Positions 26,801-45,924 of a DNA stretch of 64,000 nt are shown piece after piece. Origin of the DNA: Blautia sp. (GTDB taxonomy: Bacteria > Bacillota > Clostridia > Lachnospirales > Lachnospiraceae); NCBI GenBank assembly GCA_022769545.1, contig JALEJS010000033.1:1-64000 (forward strand), written 5' to 3'. Each line of letters opens with the position of its first letter. Position 1 is the first letter of the stretch. The notes beneath the pieces are model-generated. The model was not told the origin of the DNA. It saw only the letters and a program-made list of their open reading frames with translations, and ran no database searches. Both the position numbers and the translations under genes were made by a program.

Positions 26801-27355
26801 CTATACCTCATCATTAAGAAGCATCAGAATCATCTGCGCGGTCTCCGCCATATTGGTTCCGGAATCCATACTGTTTTTCTGGATATACCGATAGGCATCT
26901 TCCTCACTCATATGGTTCCGCTCCATCAGAAGGAGCTTGGCGCTGGCAATGGCATTTTCTTCCTCTTTGCTGCGCTTTTTGGGCTTTTTCCGGAGTTTTT
27001 TCAGTCTCCGGTCCAGCTGTGTGACCATCATATCCACCGTATTCACCAGATCGGAAGCCCGAAGCGGCATTTCCACTGTGATGACAGAATTTGGTGCCTC
27101 CTCGATCACACGGCGGGAGCCAAGTAAAAGCAACTCGAAATAATCCGGTTTGTTGTCCAGAATATCCAGATAATACATATCGGAAAGCCGATAACCACAA
27201 ATAAGGATTCCCGCATCCACACCTGACATTCCGGCAAGTGCCGCAGCACCTGTATTGCAAACCGAAGTCACCGAAAAACCGTATCGGCTGAGAATCGAAC
27301 GGATTTTTTTCGCATCTTCAATTTTCGGCAATGCAATCACAATGCTGCAGTTCAT
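26801..27355 (-). CDS. ANTAR-domain RNA-binding antiterminator
   Basis: 184 residues. Residues about 1-115 resemble a response-regulator receiver, but the usual phosphoacceptor Asp position reads ILICGYRL, so phosphorylation is unlikely. Residues 125-184 are an ANTAR domain: SAKLLLMERNHMSEEDAYRYIQK, then NMAETAQMIL. ANTAR proteins bind hexaloop hairpins in nascent RNA and stop terminator folding. The gene follows glnA by about 35 bases, as in clostridial glnA-antiterminator pairs. Target-like hairpins lie ahead of glnA, glnN and purF, and a weaker one ahead of amt. I prefer the ATG at 27355 (GAGTGG 7 bases upstream); a GTG at 27370 is possible. Confidence 0.9.
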   Translation of the reverse strand: MNCSIVIALPKIEDAKKIRSILSRYGFSVTSVCNTGAAALAGMSGVDAGILICGYRLSDMYYLDILDNKPDYFELLLLGSRRVIEEAPNSVITVEMPLRASDLVNTVDMMVTQLDRRLKKLRKKPKKRSKEEENAIASAKLLLMERNHMSEEDAYRYIQKNSMDSGTNMAETAQMILMLLNDEV

Positions 27356-27390
27356 ACTTATGCCACTCACTTTCGGTTACTAAACGATTT

Positions 27391-28713
27391 CTATATACAA
27401 TACAGATACTGCTGAATTTCCCATTCCGTAATCTGTCGATTATATTTACGCCACTGTTTCTTCTTTGCAGCCGCATACTCCTCACAGAATTCGTTTCCGA
27501 GTATTCCCCGGATCCATTCACTTTCCTCAAACAGTGCAATCGCCTCTCCCAGATTTTCCGGAAGATTCTCGATGGAATGTCTCATCTCACTGTCTTCATC
27601 GTCAGAACAGTTCGCAGATTTCACAGGCTGAATTTCATTTTTGATTCCATCCAGTCCTGCGGCAAGACATACAGCAAATACAAGGTAGGGATTCGATGCG
27701 GAATCCGGGCTACGCAGTTCAATTCTCGTATCTGCGCCACGTTCATAGGATACCTTCACAAGAGAATTCTGATTGTATTTGGTCCAGGTCAGTTCGGTCG
27801 GAGCCTCATATCCGGGTACCAGCCGTTTATATGAATTCACCAGCGGATTGGTAATCAGCGCCATCTCCCGGCTGTGCTTCAGAAGACCTCCGATGAAACA
27901 AAATGCCTCCTTGCTCAGTCCGTCTTCTCCGTCAGGATCGTCAAAAATATTCTTTCCATCTTTAAATAAGGCAAAATGAATATGCATACCGGAGCCGTTT
28001 AATTCTTCTCTGGGCTTTGGCATAAATGTAGCATGCAGTCCATGACGTTTGGCGATGGTTCTGACTGTCATTTTCAATGTCATGATTGAATCGGCCATCT
28101 CTGTCATTTCCCCATAATGGAAATCAATCTCATGCTGCGCCGGAGCCGTCTCATGGTGAGAGGATACTACCTCAAAACCGATATTTTCCAGATTGAGCAC
28201 CATATCTCTTCTGGCGTTTTCTCCCAGATCCACCGGACCGATGTCCAGATAACCTGCCTTCTCATGTGTTACTGTGGTGGGAACGCCATTCTCATCTGTG
28301 TGAAACAAAAAGAACTCGCATTCCGGATCAATATAACAGGTGTATCCATCTGCCGCCGCTTCCTGCGCCACTCTTTTCATAATATAACGGGAGCTTCTTT
28401 TCAGCGGCGTCCCATCCGGACGGTAAATATCACAAAGCATTCTTGCGACACGGCTCTGCTGCGGTCTCCAGGGCAGAATAATGAAAGTATTCGGATCCGG
28501 ATACAAATACATATCCGGTTCTTTTTCCACGGCAAGGCCGGCAATAAAAGAACTGTCCACCTTATATTTATTGTCCAGTGCTCTTGGAAGCTCTCTCGCT
28601 GTAATGGCAATATTTTTCAGATTGCCAAACATATCTGTAAACTGCAGCCGGATAAATTCCACATCCTCTTCCTCTGCCATCTGCAGAACTTCTTCCCTGG
28701 TATAATTACCCAT
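27391..28713 (-). CDS. glnA: glutamine synthetase type I
   Basis: 440 residues, the GSI-alpha length. Makes glutamine from glutamate, ammonia and ATP as a dodecamer. Supporting motifs are the DMYLYPD near 79, the ATP-site block KPREELNGSGMHIHFAL and the glutamate-site RIELRSPDSASNPYL. GSI-alpha enzymes are normally not adenylylated. AAGGAGAG lies just before the ATG. It shares a transcript with the ANTAR gene. The leader carries a hexaloop hairpin and an attenuator-like terminator. Confidence 0.96.
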   Translation of the reverse strand: MGNYTREEVLQMAEEEDVEFIRLQFTDMFGNLKNIAITARELPRALDNKYKVDSSFIAGLAVEKEPDMYLYPDPNTFIILPWRPQQSRVARMLCDIYRPDGTPLKRSSRYIMKRVAQEAAADGYTCYIDPECEFFLFHTDENGVPTTVTHEKAGYLDIGPVDLGENARRDMVLNLENIGFEVVSSHHETAPAQHEIDFHYGEMTEMADSIMTLKMTVRTIAKRHGLHATFMPKPREELNGSGMHIHFALFKDGKNIFDDPDGEDGLSKEAFCFIGGLLKHSREMALITNPLVNSYKRLVPGYEAPTELTWTKYNQNSLVKVSYERGADTRIELRSPDSASNPYLVFAVCLAAGLDGIKNEIQPVKSANCSDDEDSEMRHSIENLPENLGEAIALFEESEWIRGILGNEFCEEYAAAKKKQWRKYNRQITEWEIQQYLYCI

Positions 28714-28801
28714 GATAGTCTCTCCTTAATACTATAATTTCATTTTGATGATGTCGGGATCAAAAGATACCATCAATTTCATAAAAATCGGCTCCTGAAA
28801 A

Positions 28802-28851
28802 GAAAAAGGCGCACTTACGCAGGGTTTCCCCACATAAGAACGCCTTTGTTC
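28802..28851 (-). promoter_or_regulatory. glnA leader: ANTAR-type hexaloop hairpin overlapping a terminator
   Basis: On the minus strand GAAC-AAAGGC-GTTC (28851 to 28838) is a perfect 4-bp stem with a hexaloop that has A1 and G4. The loop bases AAAGGCG also form the 5' arm of a terminator: AAAGGCG pairs with CGCCTTT around an 11-bp inner stem capped by AAA, followed by T-rich tail near 28802. The two folds share bases, so binding of an ANTAR protein should favour read-through into glnA. Confidence 0.75.
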
Positions 28852-28859
28852 ATGCAGGT

Positions 28860-28888
28860 ATTATAGCAACCTGCATGAACTTTGTCAA
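28860..28888 (-). promoter_or_regulatory. glnA promoter with flanking dyad
   Basis: Minus strand TTGACA, 17-base spacer, TATAAT: a consensus sigma-A promoter. A 12-bp inverted repeat (GTTCATGCAGGT and ACCTGCATGAAC, 28848-28880) encloses the -10 box, so a DNA-binding repressor site is also possible. Predicted start is near 28853, a few bases before the hexaloop hairpin. Confidence 0.8.
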
Positions 28889-28894
28889 TCATTT

Positions 28895-30379
28895 TTATAA
28901 ATAAGAATAACCCATCAGAGATTCATCTACGGCTTTCGCAGCTTCTCTTCCTTCCCGGATCGCCCAGACAACCAGCGACTGCCCTCTGTGCATATCGCCT
29001 GCTGTAAATACACGCGGAATACTGGTTTCATATTTATCCGGTTCTGTCTGTACATTGGTTCTTCCGTTAATCGCCACCTTAAACGCATCGGTAACGTATT
29101 TCTGACTGCCCAGGAAGCCTGCCGCAATCAGTACCAGATCTGCAGGAACCGTTTCTTCGCTGCCCTCCACCGGAACCATATTCATTCTTCCGGTTTTCTC
29201 GTCCTTCACGCTCTGCAGTTTTACAAGAACCGCCTGCTTCACATTTCCTTTTTTATCTGCAAGGAATTCCTTTACGGTTGTCTGATATACGCGCGGATCA
29301 TGTCCGAATACGGCAATGGCCTCTTCCTGGCCATAATCCGTCTTCAGGACTCTCGGCCACTGCGGCCACGGATTGGATGGTGTCCGTTCCACAGGCGGAC
29401 AGGGCATCATCTCCAGCTGCGTCACGGAAGCGGCCCCAAGACGAATGGAGGTTCCCACACAGTCATTTCCGGTGTCACCTCCGCCGATGACAATGACATG
29501 CTTATCCTTTGCGAGCTCATACGGGACATTTTCAAAATCGGAATCCAGAAGTCTTTTTGTTACCATTCCCAGAAAATCCACTGCAAAATGAATACCATTT
29601 GACTCTCTTCCCGGAACCTTAATGTCACGGGGATTGGAGGCTCCGCAGCACAGAAGCACTCGGTCGAATTTTTCCATCAGTTCCTCAGCCGTGATGTCCA
29701 CACCAATGTTGGTGTTGGTGACAAATTTGACCCCTTCTTCCTCCATCACCTTCAGTCTTCTGTCAATGACCGATTTCTCAAGCTTCATGTTCGGAATTCC
29801 ATATCGAAGAAGTCCCCCGATGCGGTCCTTGCGTTCAAATACCGTAACATCATGACCTCTTCGATTCAGCTGCTGAGCAGCCGCGAGACCGGAGGGTCCG
29901 CTTCCCACAACGGCAATGGTTTTTCCGGTACGAACCTTTGGAATCTGCGGTTTCACCCAGCCTTCTGCATAGGCGGTCTCAATGATGGCACGTTCGTTCT
30001 CCTTCGTGGACACCGGCTCCCCGTCCAGATTGCAGGTACAGGCTGCCTCGCACAGAGCCGGGCAGACACGGCAGGTGAATTCCGGAAAGCTGTGGGTCTT
30101 GGAAAGGCGAAGATATGCCTGTTTCCAGTTTCCTGTATAGACAAGATCATTTGTCTCCGGAACAAGATTATGCAGCGGACACCCGGAAGCCATACCCCCG
30201 AGCATGGCACCGGACTGGCAGAACGGCACTCCGCAGGCCATACAGCGTGCACCCTGAAGTGTCTGCTTCTCTCTGCTTAACGGTGTACGAAATTCATGAA
30301 AATTCTTTATCCGCTCCTTTGGCGGAAGCACTTTTGCAGTTTCTCTTTTATAATCTAAAAATCCTGTTGGTTTTCCCAT
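28895..30379 (-). CDS. gltD: glutamate synthase, small (beta) subunit
   Basis: 494-residue NADPH-dependent FAD/Fe-S subunit that passes electrons to GltB. N-terminal Cys clusters CMACGVPFCQ and CRVCPALCEAACTCN bind 4Fe-4S centres. The FAD fold is VVGSGPSGLAAAQQL and the NADPH fold VIGGGDTGNDC; a C-terminal FTAGDMHRGQSL completes it. It follows gltB by 15 bases. Its stop lies only 6 bases from the glnA promoter. Confidence 0.96.
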   Translation of the reverse strand: MGKPTGFLDYKRETAKVLPPKERIKNFHEFRTPLSREKQTLQGARCMACGVPFCQSGAMLGGMASGCPLHNLVPETNDLVYTGNWKQAYLRLSKTHSFPEFTCRVCPALCEAACTCNLDGEPVSTKENERAIIETAYAEGWVKPQIPKVRTGKTIAVVGSGPSGLAAAQQLNRRGHDVTVFERKDRIGGLLRYGIPNMKLEKSVIDRRLKVMEEEGVKFVTNTNIGVDITAEELMEKFDRVLLCCGASNPRDIKVPGRESNGIHFAVDFLGMVTKRLLDSDFENVPYELAKDKHVIVIGGGDTGNDCVGTSIRLGAASVTQLEMMPCPPVERTPSNPWPQWPRVLKTDYGQEEAIAVFGHDPRVYQTTVKEFLADKKGNVKQAVLVKLQSVKDEKTGRMNMVPVEGSEETVPADLVLIAAGFLGSQKYVTDAFKVAINGRTNVQTEPDKYETSIPRVFTAGDMHRGQSLVVWAIREGREAAKAVDESLMGYSYL

Positions 30380-30394: not shown

Positions 30395-33300
30395 TTAACG
30401 TTTTGATCCGATGCTTTCATAGAAAGCTTCCATCTGTGCCTGGTCGCTTGTCAGACCTTTTTCTTCCAGCTTCGCACTCAGCGTAATCATCCGTTTGTAT
30501 TCATCCGGAATCAGCTTTTTGAAATGAGGCAGGTAGTAGTTGAAGTCTGCCAGAATCTTGGCACCCAGTTTGGAACCGGTCGCTGCCACATGGGCCTCGA
30601 TCATATCATGAAGTTCCTTCTTATCATATTTGTTTTCCACCTTTTCAATGGAAATCATTGCTTTATTGATGTTGCGGTACAGTACATTCTCTTCATCCAG
30701 AACATATGCAATACCACCGCTCATGCCGGCTGCAAAGTTTTTCCCGGTTTTTCCGAGAACCACGACACGACCGCCGGTCATGTACTCACAGCCATGCTCT
30801 CCCACGCCTTCCACAACAGCACAGGCGCCGGAATTACGAACTGCAAAACGTTCACCGGCCACACCATTGATGTACGCGGTTCCGCTGGTGGCACCATAAA
30901 GAGCCACATTTCCGATGATAATATTATCTTCTGCTTTATACGACGCATTTTCCGGAACCTTTACGATCAGTTTTCCTCCGGAAAGTCCCTTTCCAAAATA
31001 GTCATTGCTGTCACCAGTCAGTTCCAGAGTCAGACCTTTCGGAATGAATGCGCCAAAGCTCTGTCCGCCGGCACCGGTACAGTGAACCACGATGGTATCC
31101 TCCGGAAGACCTTCCTTATGGTTTCGTGTAATTTCAGCCCCGAGAATCGTGCCGACCGTACGGTCTGTATTGGAAACATTTACACTCAGCTCGGTTTTCT
31201 TTCCCTGAAGCAGAGCTTTCTGACATTTTTTCAGAAGAACCTTTTCGTCCAGTGTCTTTTCCAGTTCAAAGTTGAACTGTGCCTTCGGGTCAAACGTTAC
31301 TTTTTTCCCTTCTCCGGCATACGGATTGTTCAGAATGGCGGAGAGATCCACCTTTCCCACATGCGGTTCCTCCACAGTCTGGGACTGAACCAGAAGATCC
31401 GTGCGTCCGACCATCTCATCCACCGAACGAACACCGAGTTTTGACATGTACTCCCGCAGCTCCTGCGCAATAAAGCGCATGAAGTTTTCAACATATTCCG
31501 GTTTTCCGCGGAAACGTTTGCGCAGTTCCGGGCTCTGTGTGGCAACACCTACCGGACAGGTATCCAGATTGCAGACACGCATCATGACACATCCCATGGT
31601 TACAAGCGGTGCCGTTGCAAACCCGAATTCTTCTGCGCCCATCAGTGCTGCAATTGCAACATCACGTCCGCTCATCAGCTTTCCGTCTGTCTCAATACGG
31701 ACACGATTGCGCAAGCCATTCATCAGAAGTGTCTGATGTGTCTCTGCCAGTCCAAGTTCCCACGGAAGTCCGGCATTATGGATGGAGCTTCTCGGAGCAG
31801 CACCGGTACCTCCGTCATAACCGGAAATCAGAATCACCTGTGCACCTGCTTTTGCAACACCGGCAGCAACGGTACCCACACCGGCTTCCGATACCAGTTT
31901 TACGGAAATATCCGCATATTTATTGGAATTTTTCAGGTCATAGATCAGCTGTGCCAGATCCTCGATGGAATAAATATCATGGTGCGGCGGCGGAGATATC
32001 AGGCTGACGCCCGGCGTGGAATGACGTGTCTTCGCAATCCACGGGTACACCTTTTTAGCCGGAAGATGCCCGCCTTCTCCAGGTTTTGCACCCTGTGCCA
32101 TCTTAATCTGAATTTCTCTTGCCGATACAAGATATGAACTGGTCACACCAAATCGTCCGCTCGCAACCTGTTTGATCGCAGAACAACGGTCATTGGCTGT
32201 GCCGGCAGATTCAATTCTCTCATCACTTTCTCCGCCTTCACCGGTATTGGATTTTCCGTGAAGATGGTTCATGGCAATGGCCAGTGTCTCATGGGCCTCC
32301 TGTGAGATGGAACCATAGGACATGGCTCCTGTCTTAAATCGTTTCACGATCTCATCAACGCTTTCCACTTCTTCCATGGGAACCGGTGTCTCGGCATATT
32401 TGAAGTCGAGAATTCCTCTTAAATTTCCATGGTTTTCCGCATCCACCTTTGCGGTATATTCTTTGAACAGCGCATAGCTTCCGGTCCAAGTAGACTGCTG
32501 AAGAAGATGAATGGTTGCAGGGTTGTAGCGATGTGCTTCTCCCTGACTTCTGGATTTATGCGCTCCCATACTGTCCAGCGTAAGGTCTGTTGCCAGCCCC
32601 AGCGGATCAAAGGCTTCGGAATGAAGCTTCTCTACCGTGTTCTCGATGTCTTCCATCGTGATACCGCCCACTCTGCTGACGGTTCCGGTGAAGTATTTAT
32701 CGATCACTTTCTGAGAAATACCGATCGCCTCAAAAATCTGAGATCCCTGATAGGACTGAATGGTAGAAATACCCATTTTGGAAGCAATTTTTACAATTCC
32801 GCTCAGTACGGCATGATTGTAATCATCCACAGCCGCATAATAATCCTTATCCAGCATATGATTATCGATCAGCTCCCGGATGGTCTCCTGCGCGAGATAT
32901 GGATTGATCGCACTCGCGCCATAGCCGAGAAGTGTCGCAAAATGATGTACCTCACGGGGTTCCCCGGATTCCAGAATAATCGCAAGGGAGGTACTCTTTT
33001 TCGTCTTTACGAGATGCTGATGTACTGCCGAAACTGCCAGAAGAGACGGAATCGGCATATGGTTTTCATCCACGCCGCGGTCAGAAAGGACAAGAATATT
33101 TGCTCCCTCACGGAAAGCCTTATCTACTTCCACGAACAGGCGGTCAATGGCTCTTTCCAGCTTGGTACTCTTGTAATAAAGCGTCGAGACAACCGCTGTC
33201 TTAAATCCGGGTCTGTTCAGGTTTTTGATTTTCAGCATATCGGTGTTGGTGAGGATCGGGTTGTTGATCTTCAGTACCTGACAGTTTTCCGGTTTCAGTT

Positions 33301-34942
33301 CCAGCAGATTGCCGTCTTTTCCCACATAAACGCTGGTGGAGGTAACGATCTGCTCACGGATCGCATCGATCGGCGGATTGGTAACCTGCGCAAACAGCTG
33401 TTTAAAGTAATCGAACAGCGGACGGTTTTCCCTGGAAAAAACAGCCAGCGGAGTATCGGTACCCATGGCACCGATGCTCTCGGCACCGTTCATTGCCATA
33501 TTACGGATCGATGTCCGATACTGTTCATAGGTATATCCGAAGGCTTTCTGAAGACGTGAGCGCTCTTCCTCTGTGTATTCGACCATTCTCTGATTCGGAA
33601 TTTTGATGCTTTTCAGTTCCACGAGGTTGCTGTCCAGCCATTCTCCATATGGCTGCTCATGAGCGTAGCCTTCCTTCAGCTCGTTATCATCAATCACCTT
33701 TCCTTTGACCGTATCCACCAGAAGCATTTTTCCGGGATGAAGACGTTCCTTAAGAACAATCCTGTCCTCCGGAATCGGAAGAACACCAACTTCCGAAGAA
33801 AGAATCATATATCCGTCGGACGTAATGTAATATCTGGACGGTCTCAGACCGTTCCGGTCAAGAACCGCACCCATGACATCGCCGTCAGAAAACAGAATGG
33901 ATGCCGGTCCGTCCCACGGTTCCATCATCGTTGCATAATACTGATAAAAATCACGCTTTTCCTGGGAAATGGTATCATTGTTCGCCCATGGCTCCGGAAT
34001 ACAGATCATTGCTGCCAGTGCAAGCTCCATGCCGCTCATGACAAGAAATTCCAGGGTATTGTCCAGCATGGCCGAATCCGAACCTGCCCGGTTTACCACC
34101 GGAAGAACTTTGTGCAGCTCGCCTTTCAGGTACGGAGATTCCATATTTTCCTCCCGTGCCAGCATCTTGTCCGCATTTCCGCGAATGGTATTGATCTCAC
34201 CGTTGTGAACCATGAAACGGTTCGGATGCGCGCGTTCCCAGCTCGGATTGGTATTTGTACTGAATCTGGAATGAACCATGGCAATGGCAGATTCATAATC
34301 CGGACTCTGAAGATCTTCAAAAAATGTCCGAAGCTGTCCCACAAGGAACATGCCCTTGTATACAATTGTACGGCTGCTCATAGATACCACATAGGTATTG
34401 TCATTGCTCTGCTCAAATTCCCGACGCACAATATACAGCTTCCGATCAAAAGGAAGTCCCTTCTCCACGTCCTCCGGCTTCTGAATAAAAGCCTGCATAA
34501 TGCAGGGCATGCATTCTCTCGCCTTATGTCCCAGTACCTGCGGAAATACCGGTACGGTTCTCCAGCCGAGAAGCTCAAGACCTTCTTTTTTCAGGATCAC
34601 CTCGAACATTTTTTTCGCCTGGGCACGTTTGATCTCATGCTGCGGAAAGAAAAACTGGGCAATTCCGTATTCTCTTTCTCCTCCAAGGATAATTCCATCT
34701 TTTTTACAGACTTTTTTGAAAAATTTATGGGAAATCTGCAGAAGGATTCCAACACCGTCACCGGTCTTTCCTTCTGCATCCTTACCTGCACGATGCTCCA
34801 GATTTTCAACGATCCTCAGAGCATTTTCCACCGTTTCATGCGTCTTCTTTCCCTTGATATTGACCACGGCTCCGATTCCGCAGTTGTCATGCTCAAATTC
34901 CGGGCGATACAGTCCACACGGTTCCTTCCTCACTTCACTCAT
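30395..34942 (-). CDS. gltB: glutamate synthase, large (alpha) subunit
   Basis: 1515 residues. Hydrolyses glutamine, channels the ammonia to 2-oxoglutarate and releases two glutamates. An N-terminal class II amidotransferase domain begins at Cys21 (CGIGAV), so a 20-residue propeptide must be removed. A central domain follows, then the FMN/3Fe-4S synthase domain (about 850-1200) with CVMMRVCNLDTCPVG, and the C-terminal GXGXG beta-helix (about 1270-1480). The start is 6 bases after the pyrG stop, and its ribosome site AGGAAAGGATGAGG overlaps the end of pyrG. Confidence 0.97.
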   Translation of the reverse strand: MSEVRKEPCGLYRPEFEHDNCGIGAVVNIKGKKTHETVENALRIVENLEHRAGKDAEGKTGDGVGILLQISHKFFKKVCKKDGIILGGEREYGIAQFFFPQHEIKRAQAKKMFEVILKKEGLELLGWRTVPVFPQVLGHKARECMPCIMQAFIQKPEDVEKGLPFDRKLYIVRREFEQSNDNTYVVSMSSRTIVYKGMFLVGQLRTFFEDLQSPDYESAIAMVHSRFSTNTNPSWERAHPNRFMVHNGEINTIRGNADKMLAREENMESPYLKGELHKVLPVVNRAGSDSAMLDNTLEFLVMSGMELALAAMICIPEPWANNDTISQEKRDFYQYYATMMEPWDGPASILFSDGDVMGAVLDRNGLRPSRYYITSDGYMILSSEVGVLPIPEDRIVLKERLHPGKMLLVDTVKGKVIDDNELKEGYAHEQPYGEWLDSNLVELKSIKIPNQRMVEYTEEERSRLQKAFGYTYEQYRTSIRNMAMNGAESIGAMGTDTPLAVFSRENRPLFDYFKQLFAQVTNPPIDAIREQIVTSTSVYVGKDGNLLELKPENCQVLKINNPILTNTDMLKIKNLNRPGFKTAVVSTLYYKSTKLERAIDRLFVEVDKAFREGANILVLSDRGVDENHMPIPSLLAVSAVHQHLVKTKKSTSLAIILESGEPREVHHFATLLGYGASAINPYLAQETIRELIDNHMLDKDYYAAVDDYNHAVLSGIVKIASKMGISTIQSYQGSQIFEAIGISQKVIDKYFTGTVSRVGGITMEDIENTVEKLHSEAFDPLGLATDLTLDSMGAHKSRSQGEAHRYNPATIHLLQQSTWTGSYALFKEYTAKVDAENHGNLRGILDFKYAETPVPMEEVESVDEIVKRFKTGAMSYGSISQEAHETLAIAMNHLHGKSNTGEGGESDERIESAGTANDRCSAIKQVASGRFGVTSSYLVSAREIQIKMAQGAKPGEGGHLPAKKVYPWIAKTRHSTPGVSLISPPPHHDIYSIEDLAQLIYDLKNSNKYADISVKLVSEAGVGTVAAGVAKAGAQVILISGYDGGTGAAPRSSIHNAGLPWELGLAETHQTLLMNGLRNRVRIETDGKLMSGRDVAIAALMGAEEFGFATAPLVTMGCVMMRVCNLDTCPVGVATQSPELRKRFRGKPEYVENFMRFIAQELREYMSKLGVRSVDEMVGRTDLLVQSQTVEEPHVGKVDLSAILNNPYAGEGKKVTFDPKAQFNFELEKTLDEKVLLKKCQKALLQGKKTELSVNVSNTDRTVGTILGAEITRNHKEGLPEDTIVVHCTGAGGQSFGAFIPKGLTLELTGDSNDYFGKGLSGGKLIVKVPENASYKAEDNIIIGNVALYGATSGTAYINGVAGERFAVRNSGACAVVEGVGEHGCEYMTGGRVVVLGKTGKNFAAGMSGGIAYVLDEENVLYRNINKAMISIEKVENKYDKKELHDMIEAHVAATGSKLGAKILADFNYYLPHFKKLIPDEYKRMITLSAKLEEKGLTSDQAQMEAFYESIGSKR

Positions 34943-38244: not shown

Positions 38245-38272
38245 GTTTTTTTCATTTTTTTCAAAAAAGACA

Positions 38273-38300: not shown

Positions 38301-38309
38301 ACGTCACAT

Positions 38310-38349
38310 AAGCAAAGGCGCTTTGGAGAAATCTCCAGAGCGCTTTTTC
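38310..38349 (+). promoter_or_regulatory. glnN leader: ANTAR-type hexaloop hairpin overlapping a terminator
   Basis: AAGC-AAAGGC-GCTT (38310-38323) is a perfect 4-bp stem with hexaloop A1/G4. AAGGCGCT then pairs with AGCGCTTT around a TGGAGA/TCTCCA inner stem to make a terminator ending in five T. Only one of the two folds can form at a time. Confidence 0.78.
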
Positions 38350-38387
38350 TGTTTTCTATGGAGTAATCATGAAAGGAGTGTACCTAT

Positions 38388-40487
38388 ATGGCACAGAATA
38401 TTCCAGAACTCTACGGCAGTCTTGTATTTAACAATAAGATCATGCGTGAGAAATTACCGAAAGACATGTATAAAGCCCTCCGAAAGACGATCCAGAACGG
38501 AACACATCTGGAACTGGATGTGGCAAATTCCGTGGCCGTCGCTATGAAAGAATGGGCAATTGAAAACGGGGCAACCCACTATACGCACTGGTTTCAGCCA
38601 ATGACCAATGTAACAGCAGAAAAACATGACAGCTTTATCTCTCCCACCGGTGACGGTGAGGTTATCATGGATTTCTCCGGCAAGGAACTGGTAAAAGGTG
38701 AACCAGATGCATCCAGCTTCCCATCCGGCGGTCTGCGTGCCACCTTTGAAGCAAGAGGATACACTGCATGGGATCCGACTTCACCGGCATTTATCAAAGA
38801 CGGAACACTCTACATCCCCACTGCTTTCTGTTCTTATACAGGAGAAGCGCTGGATAAAAAGACACCGCTGCTTCGTTCGATGGAAACCTTGAATAAAGAA
38901 GCTGTTAAAATGCTTCACCTTCTGGGAGATACGTCGGTAAAAAATGTATCCACAACCGTTGGTCCGGAACAGGAATACTTCCTGGTGGAAAAAGAGTTAT
39001 ACAAACAGAGAAAGGATCTCGTCTTCACCGGACGTACCCTGATCGGTGCTCCGGCACCGAAAGGTCAGGAGATGGAGGATCATTATTTTGGTTCTCTGAA
39101 ACCGCGTATTTCCGCATTTATGCATGACCTTGACGAAGAGCTCTGGAAGCTTGGCATTCCAGCCAAAACAAAACATAACGAAGTCGCTCCTGCACAGCAT
39201 GAGCTTGCTCCGGTATTTGACACAACCAACGTTGCCGTCGACCACAACCAGCTTACAATGGAAGTTATGAAAAAGGTTGCGGAAAAGCACGGACTGGTTT
39301 GTCTTCTCAATGAAAAACCATTTGAAGGAATCAACGGAAGCGGCAAACATAACAACTGGTCCATGACTACGGATGCCGGTGAAAACCTGCTGAATCCCGG
39401 AAAAACACCTGCTGAAAATACACAGTTCCTTGTATTTTTGACAGCAGTCATCCAGGCAGTCGATGATTACGCAGATCTTCTCCGCATTTCTGTTGCAAGT
39501 GCAGGAAATGACCATCGTCTTGGCGCAAATGAAGCACCGCCGGCAATCGTATCCATCTTCCTTGGTGACGAGCTTACGGCAGTACTGGAATCCATCGAGA
39601 AAGACGAGTATTTTGACGCGAAAAAATCAGTGCAGATGGATATCGGTGCAAAGGTACTTCCGCACTTTACCAAAGACAATACCGACCGAAACAGAACTTC
39701 ACCGTTTGCCTTCACCGGAAATAAATTTGAGTTCCGTATGCTTGGCTCCGCTGCATCTGTTGCAAATCCGAACATCGTTCTGAATACGGCAGTTGCAGAA
39801 GTTCTCCGTCAGTTCTCTGCAAAACTGGAAAACGTTGCTCCGGAAGATATGGAAAGCGCGGTTCATGAGCTGATCAAGGAAACCATTTCCGCACACAAAC
39901 GGATCATCTTCAACGGCAACGGCTACACAGACGAATGGATTGAAGAAGCAGAACGACGCGGACTTTACAATCTGAAATCCACGCCGGATGCCCTTCCAAT
40001 GTGGATCGCAGATAAAAATGTGAAGCTCTTTACCGAGCATAAGATTTTCACAGAGGGTGAGCTTCACTCCCGTTATGAGATCTGGCTTGAAAATTACATC
40101 AAGACCATCAACATTGAATCCAATACAATGGTTGAGATGGTACAGAAGGATCTCCTTCCGTCTGTATTCAAATATATGGAAGAAGTTTCTCAGACCGCAA
40201 CCCTGAAGAAATCTGTCGTTTCCGGCATTTCTGTGGAAACAGAGTCCGCTCTTCTGGAAGAACTGACTCAGCTTTCCGGTGAGATGGTCAAAGGACTGGA
40301 TAAGCTGAAAACCGATACCGCAGCTGCACTTGCGGAAGAAGATGCGCAGGATTCTGCCAAAGCATATCAGTCTGTTGTTCTTGCAGATATGCAGGAGCTG
40401 AGAACTTCAGCTGACAAAGCAGAGGCTCTGATTCCGGACAGCTTACTTCCCTATCCGACTTACGGAAAACTGTTATTTTCGATCTAA
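38388..40487 (+). CDS. glnN: glutamine synthetase type III
   Basis: 699 residues, typical of the large GSIII dodecamers of anaerobes and cyanobacteria. Family segments include FPSGGLRATFEARGYTAWDP, NVSTTVGPEQEYFLVE (metal-binding Glu), KHNEVAPAQHELAP, and NGSGKHNNWSM (ATP/ammonia site). It is a second, unrelated-length glutamine synthetase beside glnA. GAAAGGAG lies before the ATG. Transcribed divergently from purF. Confidence 0.96.
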   Translation: MAQNIPELYGSLVFNNKIMREKLPKDMYKALRKTIQNGTHLELDVANSVAVAMKEWAIENGATHYTHWFQPMTNVTAEKHDSFISPTGDGEVIMDFSGKELVKGEPDASSFPSGGLRATFEARGYTAWDPTSPAFIKDGTLYIPTAFCSYTGEALDKKTPLLRSMETLNKEAVKMLHLLGDTSVKNVSTTVGPEQEYFLVEKELYKQRKDLVFTGRTLIGAPAPKGQEMEDHYFGSLKPRISAFMHDLDEELWKLGIPAKTKHNEVAPAQHELAPVFDTTNVAVDHNQLTMEVMKKVAEKHGLVCLLNEKPFEGINGSGKHNNWSMTTDAGENLLNPGKTPAENTQFLVFLTAVIQAVDDYADLLRISVASAGNDHRLGANEAPPAIVSIFLGDELTAVLESIEKDEYFDAKKSVQMDIGAKVLPHFTKDNTDRNRTSPFAFTGNKFEFRMLGSAASVANPNIVLNTAVAEVLRQFSAKLENVAPEDMESAVHELIKETISAHKRIIFNGNGYTDEWIEEAERRGLYNLKSTPDALPMWIADKNVKLFTEHKIFTEGELHSRYEIWLENYIKTINIESNTMVEMVQKDLLPSVFKYMEEVSQTATLKKSVVSGISVETESALLEELTQLSGEMVKGLDKLKTDTAAALAEEDAQDSAKAYQSVVLADMQELRTSADKAEALIPDSLLPYPTYGKLLFSI

Positions 40488-40598
40488 AAGGTAAATTCAG
40501 GGGATATCCTTTATGAACTCTACTTCATAATTCATTATCGATTTCCTCATCCATTAACCACACGATATACGGATATCCTCTGTTTTACATATAAAAGG

Positions 40599-40647
40599 GA
40601 ACGCTGCAAAGCAGATCACTCGTCTGTTTTGCAGCGTTCTCTTTTTC
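40599..40647. terminator. terminator between glnN and the TRIC-type gene
   Basis: GAACGCTGCAAA (40599-40610) pairs with TTTGCAGCGTTC, with an inner CAGA/TCTG stem. A T-rich tail follows on the plus strand and a shorter one on the minus strand, so it may serve both convergent genes. Confidence 0.85.
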
Positions 40648-40649
40648 CA

Positions 40650-41288
40650 TTATGCCGAAGGAAGATTCCACCGGTAGTGTGCAGCCAGAAAGCGGATCAG
40701 CATCACACACACAGAAGATGCCAGCATTGCGGGAAGCAGACCGGCTGCCCGGTATACAAATACACATACAGCTGCCCCCACAATCGAAGCACAGGCATAA
40801 ATATGGCGAAAGAATATATAGGGAGGCACGCTGGCCATCATATCACGCAGAAGACCGCCCCCCACACCTGTGATCGTCCCGAGGAATACCAGGAGAAATG
40901 TATTGTCCAGAAAGCCCTGACGGATTCCCGTATTCACTCCCACTGCCGTAAATATCCCCAGTCCCACAGAGTCCATCAGCAGCATCAGTTTGTCATACGT
41001 CGTCCGGAATTCCGAAGAAAGAATTTCTTTTTTATAATATGCAATCAGAAACACGACAAAAGAGGTCACCGATGCAACCGCTGCATAGACTCCTTTCTGA
41101 AATACACCAGGAGGAATAATTCCAAGGACAATATCACGGATAATCCCGCCTCCTACAGCTGTTACGACCCCAAGCACAGCCACACCAAAGATATCCATCT
41201 TTTTCTCAACACCAACCATTGCTCCGGAAGCAGCAAACGCAATCGTTCCAATTATTTCCATAACAAAAACAACTACCTGATAATCCAT
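40650..41288 (-). CDS. trimeric intracellular cation (TRIC/UPF0126) family membrane protein
   Basis: 212 residues with about 7 hydrophobic helices arranged as two repeats of the UPF0126 unit. The repeated glycine motifs GVVTAVGGGIIRD (near 40-52) and GTITGVGGGLLRDMM (near 130) are diagnostic. Prokaryotic TRIC relatives are K+-permeable homotrimers; glycine transport has also been suggested for some. The exact ion or solute here is unknown. Confidence 0.88.
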   Translation of the reverse strand: MDYQVVVFVMEIIGTIAFAASGAMVGVEKKMDIFGVAVLGVVTAVGGGIIRDIVLGIIPPGVFQKGVYAAVASVTSFVVFLIAYYKKEILSSEFRTTYDKLMLLMDSVGLGIFTAVGVNTGIRQGFLDNTFLLVFLGTITGVGGGLLRDMMASVPPYIFFRHIYACASIVGAAVCVFVYRAAGLLPAMLASSVCVMLIRFLAAHYRWNLPSA

Positions 41289-41318
41289 TGCCAGTCCTCC
41301 TGAAACACTGCATACGAA

Positions 41319-42746
41319 TCAGGCACGATTCACAGCACGTACTGCATAATTGTAAATTCTTTTATAAGTGGTACTGTGATAATGCAGTCCGTCATCAATG
41401 CCTTTATTATTAAATCCAAATCCTTTTTTGATCAGTTCAGAATAGGTATCAATATAGGTATAAGTATTCCCGAGCGTATTTTTCATGGTCTCATTAAAAA
41501 ACCGGATATAGCTTTCCGCTCTGTGCCGGTCTACCATACCATAAGCCTGAATCATTTTCATATTGATTGGATTCAGTGACATAAAAAACAGCCTGCAGTT
41601 GTAGCTCTTCAGCTCCGGTGCAATTTTCTTCATAAACGAAATATAACTGTACAGATTTGCAGGATCGTTTACTCCAAGATTAAACACGACTGCAACCGGT
41701 CTCTGTGCCGTTCCTCCGCCGTTTTTCTTCAGATTACGGATCAGATTTGCATATCCCGTCTCCTGGAACCAGGACAGCATGCCGCCCCGTTTTTCCACAT
41801 AGGACACATTTTTATCAAAGGAACTGCCAAACTGAATGGCAATGGTATTTTTCATGTGGTTGGTTCTGGAATCTCCCACAAAAATGAGCCGTGTATATTT
41901 CTTTGTATTCAGCTTTGCAACCTGATTCTGCGTCAGGTTTACTTCATTCGCCTTTCGGAAGAGAACCGGATAAAGATTCACATTATTTGAAAACACAATC
42001 TCCTCTCCCACCTGATACTGTGGGTTCGTCTGTCTCCCCCTTGCCATACTCCATCCAAGAAATGTATATCCGTAAGGATTGGATATTCCAGGCATGCGGA
42101 CACTGCTTCCGTATTTTACCCGATAGGATCCGTATTTCTTTCCTGCATTATTATAGAAGGTAATGGTAATTCTTTTTTCCCGAACCGCATAAAATGCCGT
42201 ATTCTTCTGAACCGTATAGGTACTGCCCGGCTTATAGATCGGCGGACTGCCACCCTTTTTCGTCGTCCAGCCAACGGTATCGTACCCGTCGATCTTCGGA
42301 ATTTCCGGAAGAACGATTTTCTGATTCCTGACTGCTGTCGTATTCAGAGACGAATAATATGCACTGGAACTGCTTCCGTCCTGATTGTTAAATGTAATTT
42401 TGTACTGAATCTGTCGGTACACGGCATAAAGTGTCATATCTTCTGTCAGCGTCAGATACGAATGAACCTTATAATCTGCATAAGACGCACCTGGCTGACG
42501 TGACCAGCCGAGGACTCTGTATCCATTCACTTCCAAAGCATCCGGAAGAAGCACCCGGGTACCCTTTACGACATTTTGCCCGATGGAATCGTAATAGGAG
42601 CTGCTTTTCCCGTTACAGTGCAAAAACGTAATGCTGACTCTGTTTCCGGAAACTGCCTGAACCTTTTTGACGGATCCTGCACAGCAAAACAGCAGTATAA
42701 ACAGAAGAACAAAACTGATTTTTTTAACTTTATTTTCTGACTTCAA
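41319..42746 (-). CDS. secreted SGNH/GDSL-like hydrolase with InlB-type repeats
   Basis: 475 residues from a TTG start. A signal peptide (ISFVLLFILLFCCAGSVKKVQA) is followed by three InlB/Listeria-Bacteroides repeat modules (about 35-260), each ending near GW-x-G...LYAVY or similar. The C-terminal SGNH hydrolase domain shows FVGDSRT (block I Ser), NLGVNDP (block III) and DGLHYHS (block V Asp/His). Likely an exported esterase/acyl hydrolase acting on cell-wall or host glycans. I start at TTG 42746 because GGAGGA is 6 bases upstream; an ATG at 42764 lacks a site. Paralogue of the next gene. Confidence 0.83.
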   Translation of the reverse strand: MKSENKVKKISFVLLFILLFCCAGSVKKVQAVSGNRVSITFLHCNGKSSSYYDSIGQNVVKGTRVLLPDALEVNGYRVLGWSRQPGASYADYKVHSYLTLTEDMTLYAVYRQIQYKITFNNQDGSSSSAYYSSLNTTAVRNQKIVLPEIPKIDGYDTVGWTTKKGGSPPIYKPGSTYTVQKNTAFYAVREKRITITFYNNAGKKYGSYRVKYGSSVRMPGISNPYGYTFLGWSMARGRQTNPQYQVGEEIVFSNNVNLYPVLFRKANEVNLTQNQVAKLNTKKYTRLIFVGDSRTNHMKNTIAIQFGSSFDKNVSYVEKRGGMLSWFQETGYANLIRNLKKNGGGTAQRPVAVVFNLGVNDPANLYSYISFMKKIAPELKSYNCRLFFMSLNPINMKMIQAYGMVDRHRAESYIRFFNETMKNTLGNTYTYIDTYSELIKKGFGFNNKGIDDGLHYHSTTYKRIYNYAVRAVNRA

Positions 42747-42767
42747 TGAATATCCTCCGATCATGCT

Positions 42768-43733
42768 TTACATCGTATTCACGTCATGAACCGCATAATT
42801 ATAAATTCGTTTGTATGTATTGGCCGTATAGTGCAGGCCGTCATCTGTGCCATTGTTGTCAAATCCGAAACCGATTCTGATCAAGCGGGAATAAGTATCA
42901 ATATATTGATACTCATCTCCAAGCAACACACACATTTTGGAATTAAATGTGCGTACTGCACTTTCTGAACGATGCCGGTCCACCATGCCGTAAGCCTGAA
43001 TCATCTTCAGATTAATCGGATTGAGAGACATGAAGAACAGTCTGCAGTGATGTTTCTGCAGCTGCGGTGCAATTTTTTTCATAAATGAAATATAATTGTA
43101 CAGATTTGCCGGATCATTGATCCCCATATGAAACACAATTGCCACCGGCCGCTCTTCTGTACCGTCTCCAAGCGTTTCCAGATTCCTGAGAAGCTCCGGA
43201 TATCCTACAGCTCTCAGCCATGGAAGCATACCGCCCCTTTTCGCCACAAAAGATATATTTTCAAATACAGAGCTTCCAAACTGATCCTCCATCGTACTTT
43301 TCATCAGATCTGTCCGGGAATCTCCCACGAAAATCAGGCGGGAATAACGTGCCGTATCCAGCGGAACGATCTGATCCCTCGTGAGACTGATTTCACACTG
43401 TACATTAAAAAAAACCGGAAACAGAGATATGTCTTTCTCAAACACAATGGCCTCATCTACCTGATACTCCGGATCAGAAGTCTTTCCCGGCCTGTCAGAC
43501 CATCCCAGCAATGTATATCCCTGCGGTTCTTCCATGCCGGGAATCCGAAAGGCACTGCCCTTTTGAACCAGGCAGGAATAGCATTGGTTTCCGGAAGCAT
43601 CACAGACCGTTACCGAAATCTTTTCCTGATCCATTCCGGCTTCTTTCCCGAAACACTCTGCCGATGGAAAACAAATCAGCACAGCAACAAACAAATACAG
43701 CGAACATATCACAAGTATTTTATCGATTCTCAT
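42768..43733 (-). CDS. secreted SGNH/GDSL-like hydrolase with one InlB-type repeat
   Basis: 321 residues. Signal peptide (ILVICSLYLFVAVLICFPSAEC, the Cys could make it a lipoprotein but no clear lipobox is seen), one repeat module (about 40-110, PQGYTLLGWSDRPG), then an SGNH domain with FVGDSRTD, HMGINDP and DGLHYTA. The catalytic domain is closely similar to the downstream protein, including the MIQAYGMVDRHR stretch, so the pair arose by tandem duplication with loss or gain of repeats. ATG at 43733 has GGAGA upstream. Four bases separate its stop from the first possible start of the next gene. Confidence 0.83.
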   Translation of the reverse strand: MRIDKILVICSLYLFVAVLICFPSAECFGKEAGMDQEKISVTVCDASGNQCYSCLVQKGSAFRIPGMEEPQGYTLLGWSDRPGKTSDPEYQVDEAIVFEKDISLFPVFFNVQCEISLTRDQIVPLDTARYSRLIFVGDSRTDLMKSTMEDQFGSSVFENISFVAKRGGMLPWLRAVGYPELLRNLETLGDGTEERPVAIVFHMGINDPANLYNYISFMKKIAPQLQKHHCRLFFMSLNPINLKMIQAYGMVDRHRSESAVRTFNSKMCVLLGDEYQYIDTYSRLIRIGFGFDNNGTDDGLHYTANTYKRIYNYAVHDVNTM

Positions 43734-43774
43734 GTATTTCTCCAACATTTCTTAATACATACCAATCCAGAGCT

Positions 43775-43803
43775 ATGATAGCACAGATTATTCTGATAGA
43801 CAA
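43775..43803 (-). promoter_or_regulatory. promoter of the SGNH gene pair
   Basis: Minus strand TTGTCT, 17-base spacer, TATCAT. Confidence 0.5.
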
Positions 43804-43841
43804 CAAAAAGAATTTCTTTTTTAAAAAATGGCTGTTAGAAT

Positions 43842-43941
43842 AAAGCGGACAAGTCCGCTTCGAACTCCCTGTATCCCTCAATTCTTGAGGGACTTGCTCC
43901 GCTTTACGCGCCAGATGCGGACTGCCATAGGCAGTCAAAAT
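43842..43941 (-). repeat. 100-bp dispersed repeat, copy B
   Basis: Reverse complement of copy A (14700-14799) with 9 substitutions and no gap. It sits between the SGNH promoter and the amt terminator and ends exactly where the terminator stem begins. Confidence 0.85.
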
Positions 43942-43969
43942 GCCGCAGTACAGGCACCGCGGCATTTTT
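43937..43969 (-). terminator. terminator for the amt-PII gene
   Basis: AAAATGCCGC and GCGGCATTTT pair around a 12-base loop. It lies 50 bases past the stop and abuts repeat copy B. Confidence 0.75.
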
Positions 43970-44018
43970 GTATCAAACACATATTCAGTTGTGGCTTTTG
44001 AACCGGATAACAGATTGC

Positions 44019-45755
44019 TTATTCAACATCCTGAAGGGCATCTGAATTTTCTTCTCCGGTACGGATCTTAACCACACGTTCCACATCATATACGAAAATC
44101 TTTCCGTCTCCGATATGTCCGGTATAAAGAACCTTCTTGGCTGCCTCAATCACGCTGTCAACCGGAATATTGCTTACTACCACTTCCACCTTAATCTTCG
44201 GAAGGAGGGTCGCATCAATTTCAACACCACGATATTTCTCGCCGGCACCCTTCTGAATACCACAGCCCATAACCTGTGTCACCGTCATACCGGTAACACC
44301 GAGATCATTCATAGCTCTGCGGAGCTTATCATACCGGGACAGCTTTGCAACGATAACCACTTTGTAAATGCCGGACAGATTCGGCTGTTTTACAACCGGA
44401 ACAGAAGCATCCTTCATTGCCTGAGAAGCGGTTACATAATTGTCGTTTCCGAGATTTGTATGTTCGTTTTCTTCCATTGTCATAGACACATCCATGATGC
44501 TGAAACCGGAATATGCAGATGCAAGACCATGTTCCATGGAGTCCAGACCGACAATTTCCTCTTCCTCTGTGACACGCAGCCCGAATACTGCTTTGATTAC
44601 ATAGAATACAATAGTCATTGTAACGGTCGTCCATAATCCAACGGCCAGAACACCAAGAATCTGCAGTCCGAGCTGATGGAAACCGCCGCCGTAGAAAAGA
44701 CCTACGATAGAATCATTGCCAGGTGCAGTAGTTGTTGCGAAAAGACCTGTTGCAATGGTACCCCAGATACCGTTCATACAGTGAACTGCCACAGCACCAA
44801 CCGGGTCATCAATATGAAGCTTGTAATCCAGAAGCCATACACCAAATACAACCAGAACACCTGCAACAGCGCCAATGATTATGGAACCAAAAGCATCTGT
44901 CACATCACAGGGTGCCGTAATTGCTACCAGACCTGCAAGAGATGCGTTCAGACACATGGAAACATCCGGTTTTCCATAGCGAACCCATGTGAAAATCATA
45001 CATACAACGGTTGCAACTGCAGGTGCAACGGTCGTCGTCAGGAAAATCGATGCCAGCTGCTCTACCGAAGTGGCTGCAGCGCCGTTGAATCCATACCAGC
45101 CAAGCCAGAGAATGAAGACACCAAGCGCACCAAGTGCAATGTTATGACCGGGAAATGCATTGACTTTTGTAACCTTGCCGTTTTTGTCTTTGTTGAATTT
45201 TCCGATACGCGGTCCAAGAATTGCTGCACCGATCAGTGCGGAAATACCACCTACCATATGGATGGCACAGGAACCGGCAAAATCATGAAATCCCATCTGA
45301 GAAAGCCAGCCGCCGCCCCAGATCCAGTGTGCTTCCACTGGATAGATCACTGCAGAAATCACTGCAGAGTACACACAGTAGGAAAGGAATTTTGTTCTTT
45401 CTGCCATGGCACCGGACACGATCGTTGCTGTCGTCGCACAGAATACCAGGTTGAATACAAAATTGGACCAGTCAAATTCTGCGTACGCAGAAAAGATGTC
45501 AAATCCGGGTTTTCCGATGATACCCATCATATCTTCTCCTAAAAGAAGTCCAAATCCGATCAGGATAAAGGTGCAGGTACCGATACAGAAATCCATCAGG
45601 TTCTTCATGATAATGTTACCGGTGTTTTTTGCTCTGGTAAAACCGGCCTCCACCATGGCAAAACCGGCCTGCATCCAGAAAACCAGCGCGGCTCCGATCA
45701 GGAACCAGACAGCAAACAGATTGCTGTTTATTGCATCCATAATTTCTTGTGTCAT
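44019..45755 (-). CDS. ammonium transporter fused to a PII signalling domain
   Basis: 578 residues. Residues 1-420 form an 11-helix Amt channel: HWIWGGGWL (pore region), HDFAGSCAIHMVGG with the first twin His and VAVHCMNGIWG with the second. Residues about 459-570 are a complete PII (GlnB/GlnK) domain: GMTVTQVMGCGIQKG, LLPKIKVEVVV, GHIGDGKIFV and RVVKIRTGEE retain ATP and 2-oxoglutarate contacts. The T-loop reads AGEKYRGVEI, with Ile where Tyr51 is uridylylated in enteric GlnB, so that control is absent. The sensor is thus tethered to its channel. Start ATG 45755 has AGGAGGAG upstream. Confidence 0.93.
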   Translation of the reverse strand: MTQEIMDAINSNLFAVWFLIGAALVFWMQAGFAMVEAGFTRAKNTGNIIMKNLMDFCIGTCTFILIGFGLLLGEDMMGIIGKPGFDIFSAYAEFDWSNFVFNLVFCATTATIVSGAMAERTKFLSYCVYSAVISAVIYPVEAHWIWGGGWLSQMGFHDFAGSCAIHMVGGISALIGAAILGPRIGKFNKDKNGKVTKVNAFPGHNIALGALGVFILWLGWYGFNGAAATSVEQLASIFLTTTVAPAVATVVCMIFTWVRYGKPDVSMCLNASLAGLVAITAPCDVTDAFGSIIIGAVAGVLVVFGVWLLDYKLHIDDPVGAVAVHCMNGIWGTIATGLFATTTAPGNDSIVGLFYGGGFHQLGLQILGVLAVGLWTTVTMTIVFYVIKAVFGLRVTEEEEIVGLDSMEHGLASAYSGFSIMDVSMTMEENEHTNLGNDNYVTASQAMKDASVPVVKQPNLSGIYKVVIVAKLSRYDKLRRAMNDLGVTGMTVTQVMGCGIQKGAGEKYRGVEIDATLLPKIKVEVVVSNIPVDSVIEAAKKVLYTGHIGDGKIFVYDVERVVKIRTGEENSDALQDVE

Positions 45756-45776
45756 AATAATCTCCTCCTCATTCCT

Positions 45777-45839
45777 AAAAAAATAAGGCGAAACATGGAG
45801 TTTCAGCTGACACAGCTGCAAAACGCCATTGTTTCGCCC
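45777..45839 (-). terminator. second leader terminator, just upstream of amt-PII
   Basis: On the minus strand GGCGAAACAATGG and CCATGTTTCGCC pair with an inner CAGCTG/CAGCTG stem; TTATTTTTTT follows. It ends 22 bases before the start codon and lies between promoter and gene, so it must be bypassed for expression. Confidence 0.8.
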
Positions 45840-45847
45840 GTTAAATA

Positions 45848-45882
45848 CAAAAGGTGCCGGGATATGTTCCTGGCACCTTTGC
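45848..45882 (-). promoter_or_regulatory. amt-PII leader: GC-AAAGGT-GC element overlapping a first terminator
   Basis: On the minus strand AAGCAAAGGTGCC opens the leader as in glnN and purF. The hexaloop AAAGGT has A1 and G4 but the closing stem is only 2 bp. AAAGGTGCC also pairs with GGCACCTTT, with inner GGA/TCC, to form a terminator-like hairpin with a four-T tail. Confidence 0.55.
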
Positions 45883-45895
45883 TTAACATGTGTGT

Positions 45896-45924
45896 AGTTT
45901 ACAACAGCAAAGTAAAAAAGTCAA
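45896..45924 (-). promoter_or_regulatory. amt-PII promoter
   Basis: Minus strand TTGACT, 17-base spacer, TAAACT. Expected start near 45889 gives a leader of about 135 bases. Confidence 0.7.

Follow-up and report, generated by a model that had tools for sequence, protein, structure and literature searches.

We examined a 64,000-nt stretch of a Blautia sp. contig (JALEJS010000033.1, positions 1 to 64,000 of the forward strand; called the window below), in which genes for glutamine synthetase (GS), glutamate synthase (GOGAT), ammonium transport and glutamine-using enzymes lie around a gene for an ANTAR protein. The original prediction was that this protein switches four of the units by antitermination, through similar hexaloop hairpins in the leaders of glnA, glnN, purF and amt-PII. 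The genes in question are listed with their coordinates and strands.

25337-26683, minus: asnS, asparaginyl-tRNA synthetase, candidate member (Pfam class II D/K/N synthetase)
26801-27370, minus: ANTAR protein (NitR-like), 189 aa, probable trans-acting antiterminator (Pfam ANTAR)
27391-28713, minus: glnA, type I GS, adjoining the ANTAR gene (Pfam)
28895-30379, minus: gltD, GOGAT small subunit (Pfam oxidoreductase/Fer4 domains)
30395-34942, minus: gltB, GOGAT large subunit (Pfam; spacing of the open reading frames)
34949-36559, minus: pyrG, CTP synthase (glutamine amidotransferase), ATG at 36559 (Pfam, translation)
36720-38120, minus: purF, amidophosphoribosyltransferase (Pfam)
38388-40487, plus: glnN, type III GS (Pfam)
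44019-45755, minus: amt-PII fusion, ammonium transporter with a P-II domain, ATG at 45755 (Pfam, translation)

The ANTAR gene, described previously as the only one in view and as lying directly behind glnA, turned out to be the sole ANTAR match in the whole 2.96-Mb assembly (91% complete). Since gltB lies 6 nt behind pyrG and gltD 15 nt behind gltB, the hairpin in front of pyrG probably controls GOGAT. The leader elements are as follows; R1 is a covariance model described below.

28860-28888, minus: predicted glnA promoter, TTGACA-N17-TATAAT, with 12 nt from the -10 box to the loop (sequence)
28838-28851, minus: glnA hexaloop hairpin GAAC-AAAGGC-GTTC, 4 bp (sequence; R1, 51.1 bits)
28802-28847, minus: glnA terminator, its 5' arm being the hexaloop and the 3' stem (fold, R1)
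38310-38323, plus: glnN hexaloop hairpin AAGC-AAAGGC-GCTT, 4 bp (sequence; R1, 29.6 bits)
38314-38350, plus: glnN terminator (fold, R1)
38196-38207, minus: purF hexaloop hairpin AGC-AAAGGC-GCT, 3 bp (sequence, fold)
38172-38204, minus: purF terminator (fold)
45873-45882, minus: first amt hexaloop GC-AAAGGT-GC, 2 bp (sequence, fold)
45847-45880, minus: first amt terminator (fold)
45818-45837, minus: second amt hexaloop GCGAAAC-AATGGC-GTTTTGC, 7 bp
45778-45839, minus: second amt terminator, overlapping the second hexaloop (fold)
36654-36669, minus: pyrG-gltB-gltD hexaloop hairpin CTGAC-AAAGGA-GTCAG
36606-36664, minus: pyrG terminator, overlapping the hexaloop (fold)
26749-26766, minus: asnS hexaloop hairpin GATTAC-AAAGAC-GTAGTC

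The four hairpins predicted previously (stem-AAAGGY-stem, before glnA, glnN, purF and amt) were recovered at the same coordinates and on the same strands, and in all four leaders the loop does form the 5' arm of an intrinsic terminator: the minimum-energy folds pair the loop bases into a terminator hairpin, after which come U's. The hairpins of pyrG and asnS and the second amt hexaloop are additions to that set. The second amt hexaloop is stronger than the first and has a terminator of its own, which gives amt two locks in series. All seven window hexaloops have A at position 1 and G at position 4 (AAAGGC three times, AAAGGT, AATGGC, AAAGGA and AAAGAC), and each except that of asnS overlaps a terminator in the folds. 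A1 and G4 are the published ANTAR determinants (PMC3369931). Folded alone, the hairpins of glnA, glnN, purF and amt (first) reach -1.6, -2.0, -1.1 and +0.5 kcal/mol, against -12.6 to -27.8 kcal/mol for the whole-leader folds of the same four leaders. With hairpins this weak and leader folds far stabler, these leaders should terminate by default, and the 2-bp amt hairpin would hardly form unless supported by a protein.

An Rfam covariance search of the whole window gave one match above threshold, Clostridiales-1, and none at a leader; in 36500-46100 there were only sub-threshold matches, at and behind glnN. A known riboswitch or Rfam leader was rejected on this lack of an above-threshold match. 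The Clostridiales-1 RNA itself (RF01699) lies at 4589-4757 on the plus strand and scored 126.5 bits. We also asked whether an inverted repeat spanning the -10 box of glnA (TTCATGCAGGT/ACCTGCATGAA) might be an operator, but rejected this because, by eye, relatives do not keep its upstream half.

We compared the number of hairpins in the window with that in dinucleotide-shuffled sequence. Four C-G-closed hairpins with a stem of at least 4 bp and an overlapping terminator were seen (shuffle mean 0.4; reached in 1 of 200 shuffles), one of which, at about 12715 on the minus strand, lies inside a long same-strand reading frame. With stems of at least 2 bp, ten were seen, a number again reached in 1 of 200 shuffles; the mean here was 4.0, so lone 2-bp hairpins mean little. 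The window-only excess is real but modest, so one window's sequence would not have decided the matter, and it is the comparative tests that carry the weight.

Across the own genome, a promoter-plus-AAAGG pattern occurred at 33 places (24 for a control pattern), five of them in the window. Thirty of the 33 were fetched and scanned, and by eye the only convincing one outside the window (L012; C-G-closed stem, terminator) stands before alsT, a gene of the sodium:alanine symporter family (AGCS transporter; Pfam Na_Ala_symp). A tighter promoter-plus-CAANGGYG pattern gave seven places (control 2): glnA, purF, glnN, amt, alsT and two others. A wide pattern was uninformative. A pattern that did not require a promoter occurred at 27 places (control 60); a stem of at least 4 bp was present in four, namely glnA, the second amt hairpin, alsT and C37:94498. 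The last has a 4-bp stem and was rejected as coding sequence in appearance by eye, and C45:16149 (R1, E 0.83) was dropped with a stem of 2 bp by eye. At G000:C46:98734 (L096) a promoter and CAAAGGCG with a 4-bp stem precede the gene for a Bmp/PnrA-type substrate-binding protein; the U-tract is poor, and membership of this place in the regulon is doubtful.

Related loci were collected by similarity to the ANTAR protein, which gave 53 loci, many from Blautia and other Lachnospiraceae. glnA is next to the ANTAR gene in all 53, and gltB and gltD are found in the window and within the fetched flanks of 26 of the 53. These loci and the window (1.015 Mb together) were scanned for an AANGGY loop with a stem of at least 4 bp and an overlapping terminator. 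The scan returned 85 matches. With eight permuted loops it returned between 7 and 19 per loop; a ninth permutation, AAGGNY, gave 40, but this one overlaps the true loop. C-G closure was found in 69 of the 85, and 65 of those 69 lie within 350 nt sense-upstream of nitrogen-set genes (glnA 37, pyrG 19, glnN 4, asnS 3, gltB 2). The remaining four comprise a pyrG with truncated start, one match before carA, one before dapF and one chance match. None of the queried genes lies behind the 16 that are not C-G closed.

The leaders examined, with those of the window, numbered 52 for glnA, 25 for pyrG, 6 for glnN, 26 for gltB and 32 for asnS; glnA loci L056 and L070 and amt loci L167 and L178, which have no gene start, were left out before counting. 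The expectation that orthologous genes would carry the motif was largely borne out under the strict definition for glnA (37/52), pyrG (19/25) and glnN (4/6), and only in patches for purF (5/25). The pyrG loop of the window itself, AAAGGA, falls outside that definition. Among 31 genomes, the own one included, amt leaders passed the strict scan in 8 of 20, and more do by eye if the closing pair is relaxed (U-G). L062 and L065 are the two loci where a gltB start is present without a preceding pyrG, and in both gltB has a hairpin of its own. When AANGGY was required only to stand 6-26 nt after a promoter in these leaders, a set not conditioned on the stem, 43 of 47 had a stem of at least 4 bp (background 178/4567). 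The motif recurs with changed stems that still pair: among C-G-closed matches they run GAAC/GTTC at glnA, TGAC/GTCA at pyrG, AAGC/GCTT at glnN and TTAC/GTAA at asnS, with TGGC/GCCG as a further one, loop and pairing having been conditions of the scan. An alignment of 30 sequences has double changes in three of the four hairpin pairs, loop and pairing being preselected here too.

The purF and glnN leaders are divergent neighbours (window 38121-38387; L139-L159). In nine printed purF upstream regions the glnN hairpin was readable in eight and a purF hairpin, resembling that of glnN, in four. The near-identical divergent hairpins suggest that the purF copy was gained by copying or has been lost repeatedly. 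In L188 and L190 a 7-bp hairpin, TGCTTAC-AAAGAC-GTGGGTG, is located about 200-245 nt before alsT, upstream of a separate terminator-like hairpin.

The covariance model R1 was built from 30 leaders of relatives, none from the window's genome. Its top three places in that genome were glnA (51.1 bits), alsT (30.1) and glnN (29.6). In 293 Clostridia genomes an R1 match at E <= 0.01 was present in 58 and PF03861 in 156. An ANTAR gene was found in 54 of the 58 R1-positive genomes vs. 102 of the 235 R1-negative ones (p 4.5e-13, a value that is too small because the genomes are related). The predicted co-occurrence of motif and ANTAR genes is thus seen in a covariance search. R1 gave 67 places outside the own genome, the best 29 of which, one per genome, were read. 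Behind these 29 stand glnA or a homologue (9), glnN (4), GOGAT or a class-II amidotransferase (6; about 850 nt away in L112, and in L123 assigned by leader and frame match to L122), and purF, purC, dapF (2), a C26/class-I GATase protein, an ABC ATPase, a PucR regulator and a class-III aminotransferase; the other two were before an MCP and a glycosidase gene. A Clostridium-like genome (L136, L097) has glnA-ANTAR-gltB with the same hairpin.

The ANTAR protein consists of a pseudo-receiver, a coiled coil and the ANTAR domain (PF03861, 57.9 bits; cut-off 27.3); a receiver domain was not recognised in the Pfam scan. A profile of 29 relatives matched EutV (6wsh, E 3.6e-13) and Rv1626 (1s8n) over most of the length; its C-terminal part also matched the nitrate regulator 4akk and AmiR (1qo0). 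In the AlphaFold2 model (mean pLDDT 90.9) a long helix and the ANTAR helices accompany a receiver-like (beta-alpha)5 domain. All 29 proteins retain the EutV RNA contacts K149, E160 and M172, and the position of Y164 is occupied by Y, H or F (13, 13 and 3). All 29 have G, S, A or E in place of EutV Asp54, and all lack the conserved Lys. Lacking Asp and Lys, and with its receiver unrecognised, the protein probably does not take its signal by the usual phosphorylation. Candidate sensors would be GS, whose gene adjoins the ANTAR gene in every locus collected, and the PII domain of the Amt fusion.

We conclude, with a probability of roughly 0.8, that the window holds a NitR-type nitrogen regulon under single-hexaloop antitermination by the ANTAR protein encoded behind glnA. 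The protein would bind a single hexaloop hairpin, its AANGGY loop closed by a C-G pair, as soon as this has formed on the nascent leader leaving the polymerase. The held hairpin would keep the loop and the 3' stem out of the terminator, and transcription would read through into glnA, glnN, amt-PII, pyrG-gltB-gltD, purF and probably asnS, and into alsT elsewhere in the genome. Without active protein the far stabler terminator would win. The signal may arrive by protein-protein contact, with GS or PII, and not by phosphorylation. Induction is expected on nitrogen limitation, the direction of control being taken solely by analogy with NitR of C. saccharobutylicum. Control of four nitrogen units by the ANTAR product, as originally proposed, is supported by the comparison for glnA and glnN and is patchy for purF. 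The proposed scope was too narrow: the regulon also includes pyrG-gltBD, alsT and probably asnS. The set joins suppliers of glutamine with its consumers (purF, pyrG, carA).

Several results weigh against this conclusion. The strict scan was failed by 15 of the 52 glnA leaders, of which four (L060, L066, L076 and L084) have by eye a similar hairpin with the loop GAGGGY or AAGGAC, so that A1 is not invariant. Recurrence within the 31 genomes is patchy for purF (5/25, own included; L148, with only 39 nt of upstream sequence, was counted as a miss) and for alsT (4/18, own included; 4/7 at 60% identity or more). In the asnS leader of the window (26684-26800, minus strand) the hairpin is followed by a separate terminator-like hairpin without overlap; the two do overlap in relatives L047 and L049. 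R1 at E <= 10 did not find pyrG, purF, amt or asnS in the own genome; since it misses these members, the genomes it counts are a minimum. An ANTAR match is missing from four R1-positive genomes (three of them in genera with ANTAR-positive members in the sample; 45 of 46 at genus level by hand count), and an R1 match from 102 ANTAR-positive genomes. EutV R142, K143 and K147 are not conserved in the 29 relatives. The transcription starts used below were predicted from sequence. A detector for two hexaloops found nothing convincing in four eut loci that served as positive control (two chance-like rows in L133, none in a second run, six loose pairs in a third). Finally, the EutV dimer is reported to bind one hexaloop at a time but to need contact with both to prevent termination (PMC8934654), so that one loop might not suffice.

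One alternative reading is that the leaders are canonical EutV-type dual-hexaloop targets in which the first hexaloop was overlooked, having a weak stem, another loop or an upstream start. The published definition of an ANTAR target is a dual hexaloop, with stems as short as 3 bp (PMC3369931, PMC8164766), and the amt leader does contain two hexaloops in tandem. Between the two amt stems, however, there are 35 nt and a complete terminator, more than the 2-25 nt taken for the linker in an actinobacterial survey (PMC8164766). Five of 103 elements show a second, upstream hexaloop (P1-like, stem of at least 4 bp), where mononucleotide shuffles lead one to expect 4.4; the chance match at L055 6259, inside gltB, had been removed from the 69 before this count. 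A promoter score of 9/12 or more is reached by 88 elements; in 55 of them the space is too short for a 12-nt P1, and only 2 of the other 33 show a P1 of at least 3 bp. For Lachnospiraceae elements with a promoter score of at least 8/12, the predicted -10 box is 10-15 nt from the loop in 43 of 65 and 21-44 nt in the other 22. In the 10-15 nt group the predicted start is a few nt before the 5' half-stem, and the loop is within about 10 bases of it. The available parts of a start-mapping study in a Lachnospiraceae species (PMC5171806) do not mention these genes. The P1 count, from a detector unvalidated on a true dual target, and the lack of room led us to reject a dual-hexaloop EutV target, and an overlooked first hexaloop is unlikely. 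The leaders therefore differ from the published target in a defining feature. The assignment to a EutV-type ANTAR system holds for the A1/G4 hexaloop and the overlap with the terminator, and fails for the number of hexaloops, one and not two, and for the receiver, which has no phospho-acceptor.

It is also conceivable that the hairpin is read by some other factor (a small-molecule-sensing RNA, another RNA-binding protein or a small RNA), the link to ANTAR reflecting shared nitrogen physiology. A glutamine sensor would fit genes of glutamine metabolism, and binding of the ANTAR protein to the hairpin is predicted from sequence. A 4-bp hexaloop is, however, too small for any known type of metabolite aptamer. 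Against such a reader also stand the co-occurrence with ANTAR genes, the same motif before glnA-ANTAR-gltB in the Clostridium-like genome, the lack of an above-threshold Rfam match at the leaders, and the coincidence of A1 and G4 with the published ANTAR determinants (PMC3369931). We consider this explanation very unlikely. That the leaders are ordinary constitutive attenuators or terminators sharing an A-rich 5' arm, with the hexaloop as a by-product, is barely credible: the loop must pair with the U-tract side, which favours AAAGG, and the window-only excess is modest, but chance and by-product alike were rejected on the permuted loops (7-19 vs. 85), on stems that change with gene family, and on an upstream half-stem that is largely outside the terminator duplex and yet pairs in 43 of 47 vs. 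a 3.9% background.

Behind glnN, at 40499-40590 on the plus strand, lies an element of about 90 nt with a hairpin, CAGGGGATATC...GATATCCTCTG, and a long, nearly invariant loop. It has no Rfam match above threshold. The element is present in eight related loci (L169-L176) at 77-94% identity, and an exact 35-mer of it in 7 of 202 loci. In L169-L176 it stands between the end of glnN, placed by eye, and amt; amt is elsewhere in the window's genome, and the element therefore seems to go with glnN. It is possibly a small RNA from a 3' untranslated region (3'UTR), for which the small RNA from the glnA 3'UTR of Enterobacteriaceae (PMC9731577) offers a comparison.

If the proposed single-hexaloop regulon is real, it coordinates the uptake of ammonium with GS, GOGAT and enzymes that use glutamine to make purines and pyrimidines, by a switch simpler than the two-hairpin version of the ANTAR family, and one that probably occurs across many clostridia. 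To our knowledge, nitrogen control in gut clostridia is poorly known compared with the NtrC or GlnR systems. Searches that require two hairpins would miss a single-hexaloop class by design. We give even odds to the broader proposal that Clostridia as a class have a second kind of ANTAR switch, with a single 5' hexaloop, a phosphorylation-independent protein and a nitrogen signal from GS or PII. No published single-hexaloop or Lachnospiraceae ANTAR regulon was found in searches of the open-access literature. Apparently new are the RNA target, a single 5' hexaloop with C-G closure, its spread through the class, and several members: glnN, amt-PII, pyrG, purF and alsT in this genome, and in relatives also carA and dapF. 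The RNA element, the protein and the list of genes are all defined and can be tested directly. They also sharpen the question of how the EutV dimer can be said to need two hexaloops (PMC8934654) when the leaders here seem to offer one.

Among known systems, EutV/EutW of Enterococcus faecalis has the same REC-coiled coil-ANTAR arrangement and an A1/G4 hexaloop overlapping an intrinsic terminator (PMC3369931). EutV depends on phosphorylation for its activation and acts through two hexaloops whose spacing is constrained (PMC3369931, PMC8934654). Here, in contrast, a single hexaloop is present and none of the 29 proteins has a phospho-acceptor Asp; the RNA contacts K149, E160, M172 and the Y164-type position are shared, R142, K143 and K147 are not. 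AmiR combines its ANTAR domain with a receiver-like domain that does not work by phosphorylation, and controls one amidase operon through AmiC. An altered receiver, likewise not run by phosphorylation, is predicted here, whereas the regulon spans several nitrogen operons and no dedicated sensor gene was noticed beside the ANTAR gene. TnrA of Bacillus (PMC6316151) serves the same physiological task, with GS as the regulator's sensor as a precedent, but it binds DNA and acts at initiation, and the protein here would bind RNA and act at termination. Ramesh et al. (2012, PMC3369931) predicted ANTAR nitrogen regulons in Desulfotomaculum and other bacteria; these likewise include PII, ammonium transport and the synthesis of glutamate and glutamine, but a covariance model with two hairpins served both to find and to define them.

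Our best reading of the protein is NitR, known from Clostridium as an ANTAR antiterminator linked to glnA, so that the regulator itself is of an already known kind. In C. saccharobutylicum the NitR gene sits behind glnA. NitR (Stutz et al. 2007) is described as an ANTAR protein capable of antitermination that induces the GS/GOGAT genes on nitrogen limitation (PMC6316151), an idea that was extended to C. thermocellum (PMC4676874). The passages on NitR in these two papers give no RNA target, whereas a single 5' hexaloop is proposed here. The ANTAR gene of the window is likewise linked to glnA and clustered with GS/GOGAT genes; the set differs in extending to glnN, amt-PII, pyrG, purF, alsT and probably asnS.

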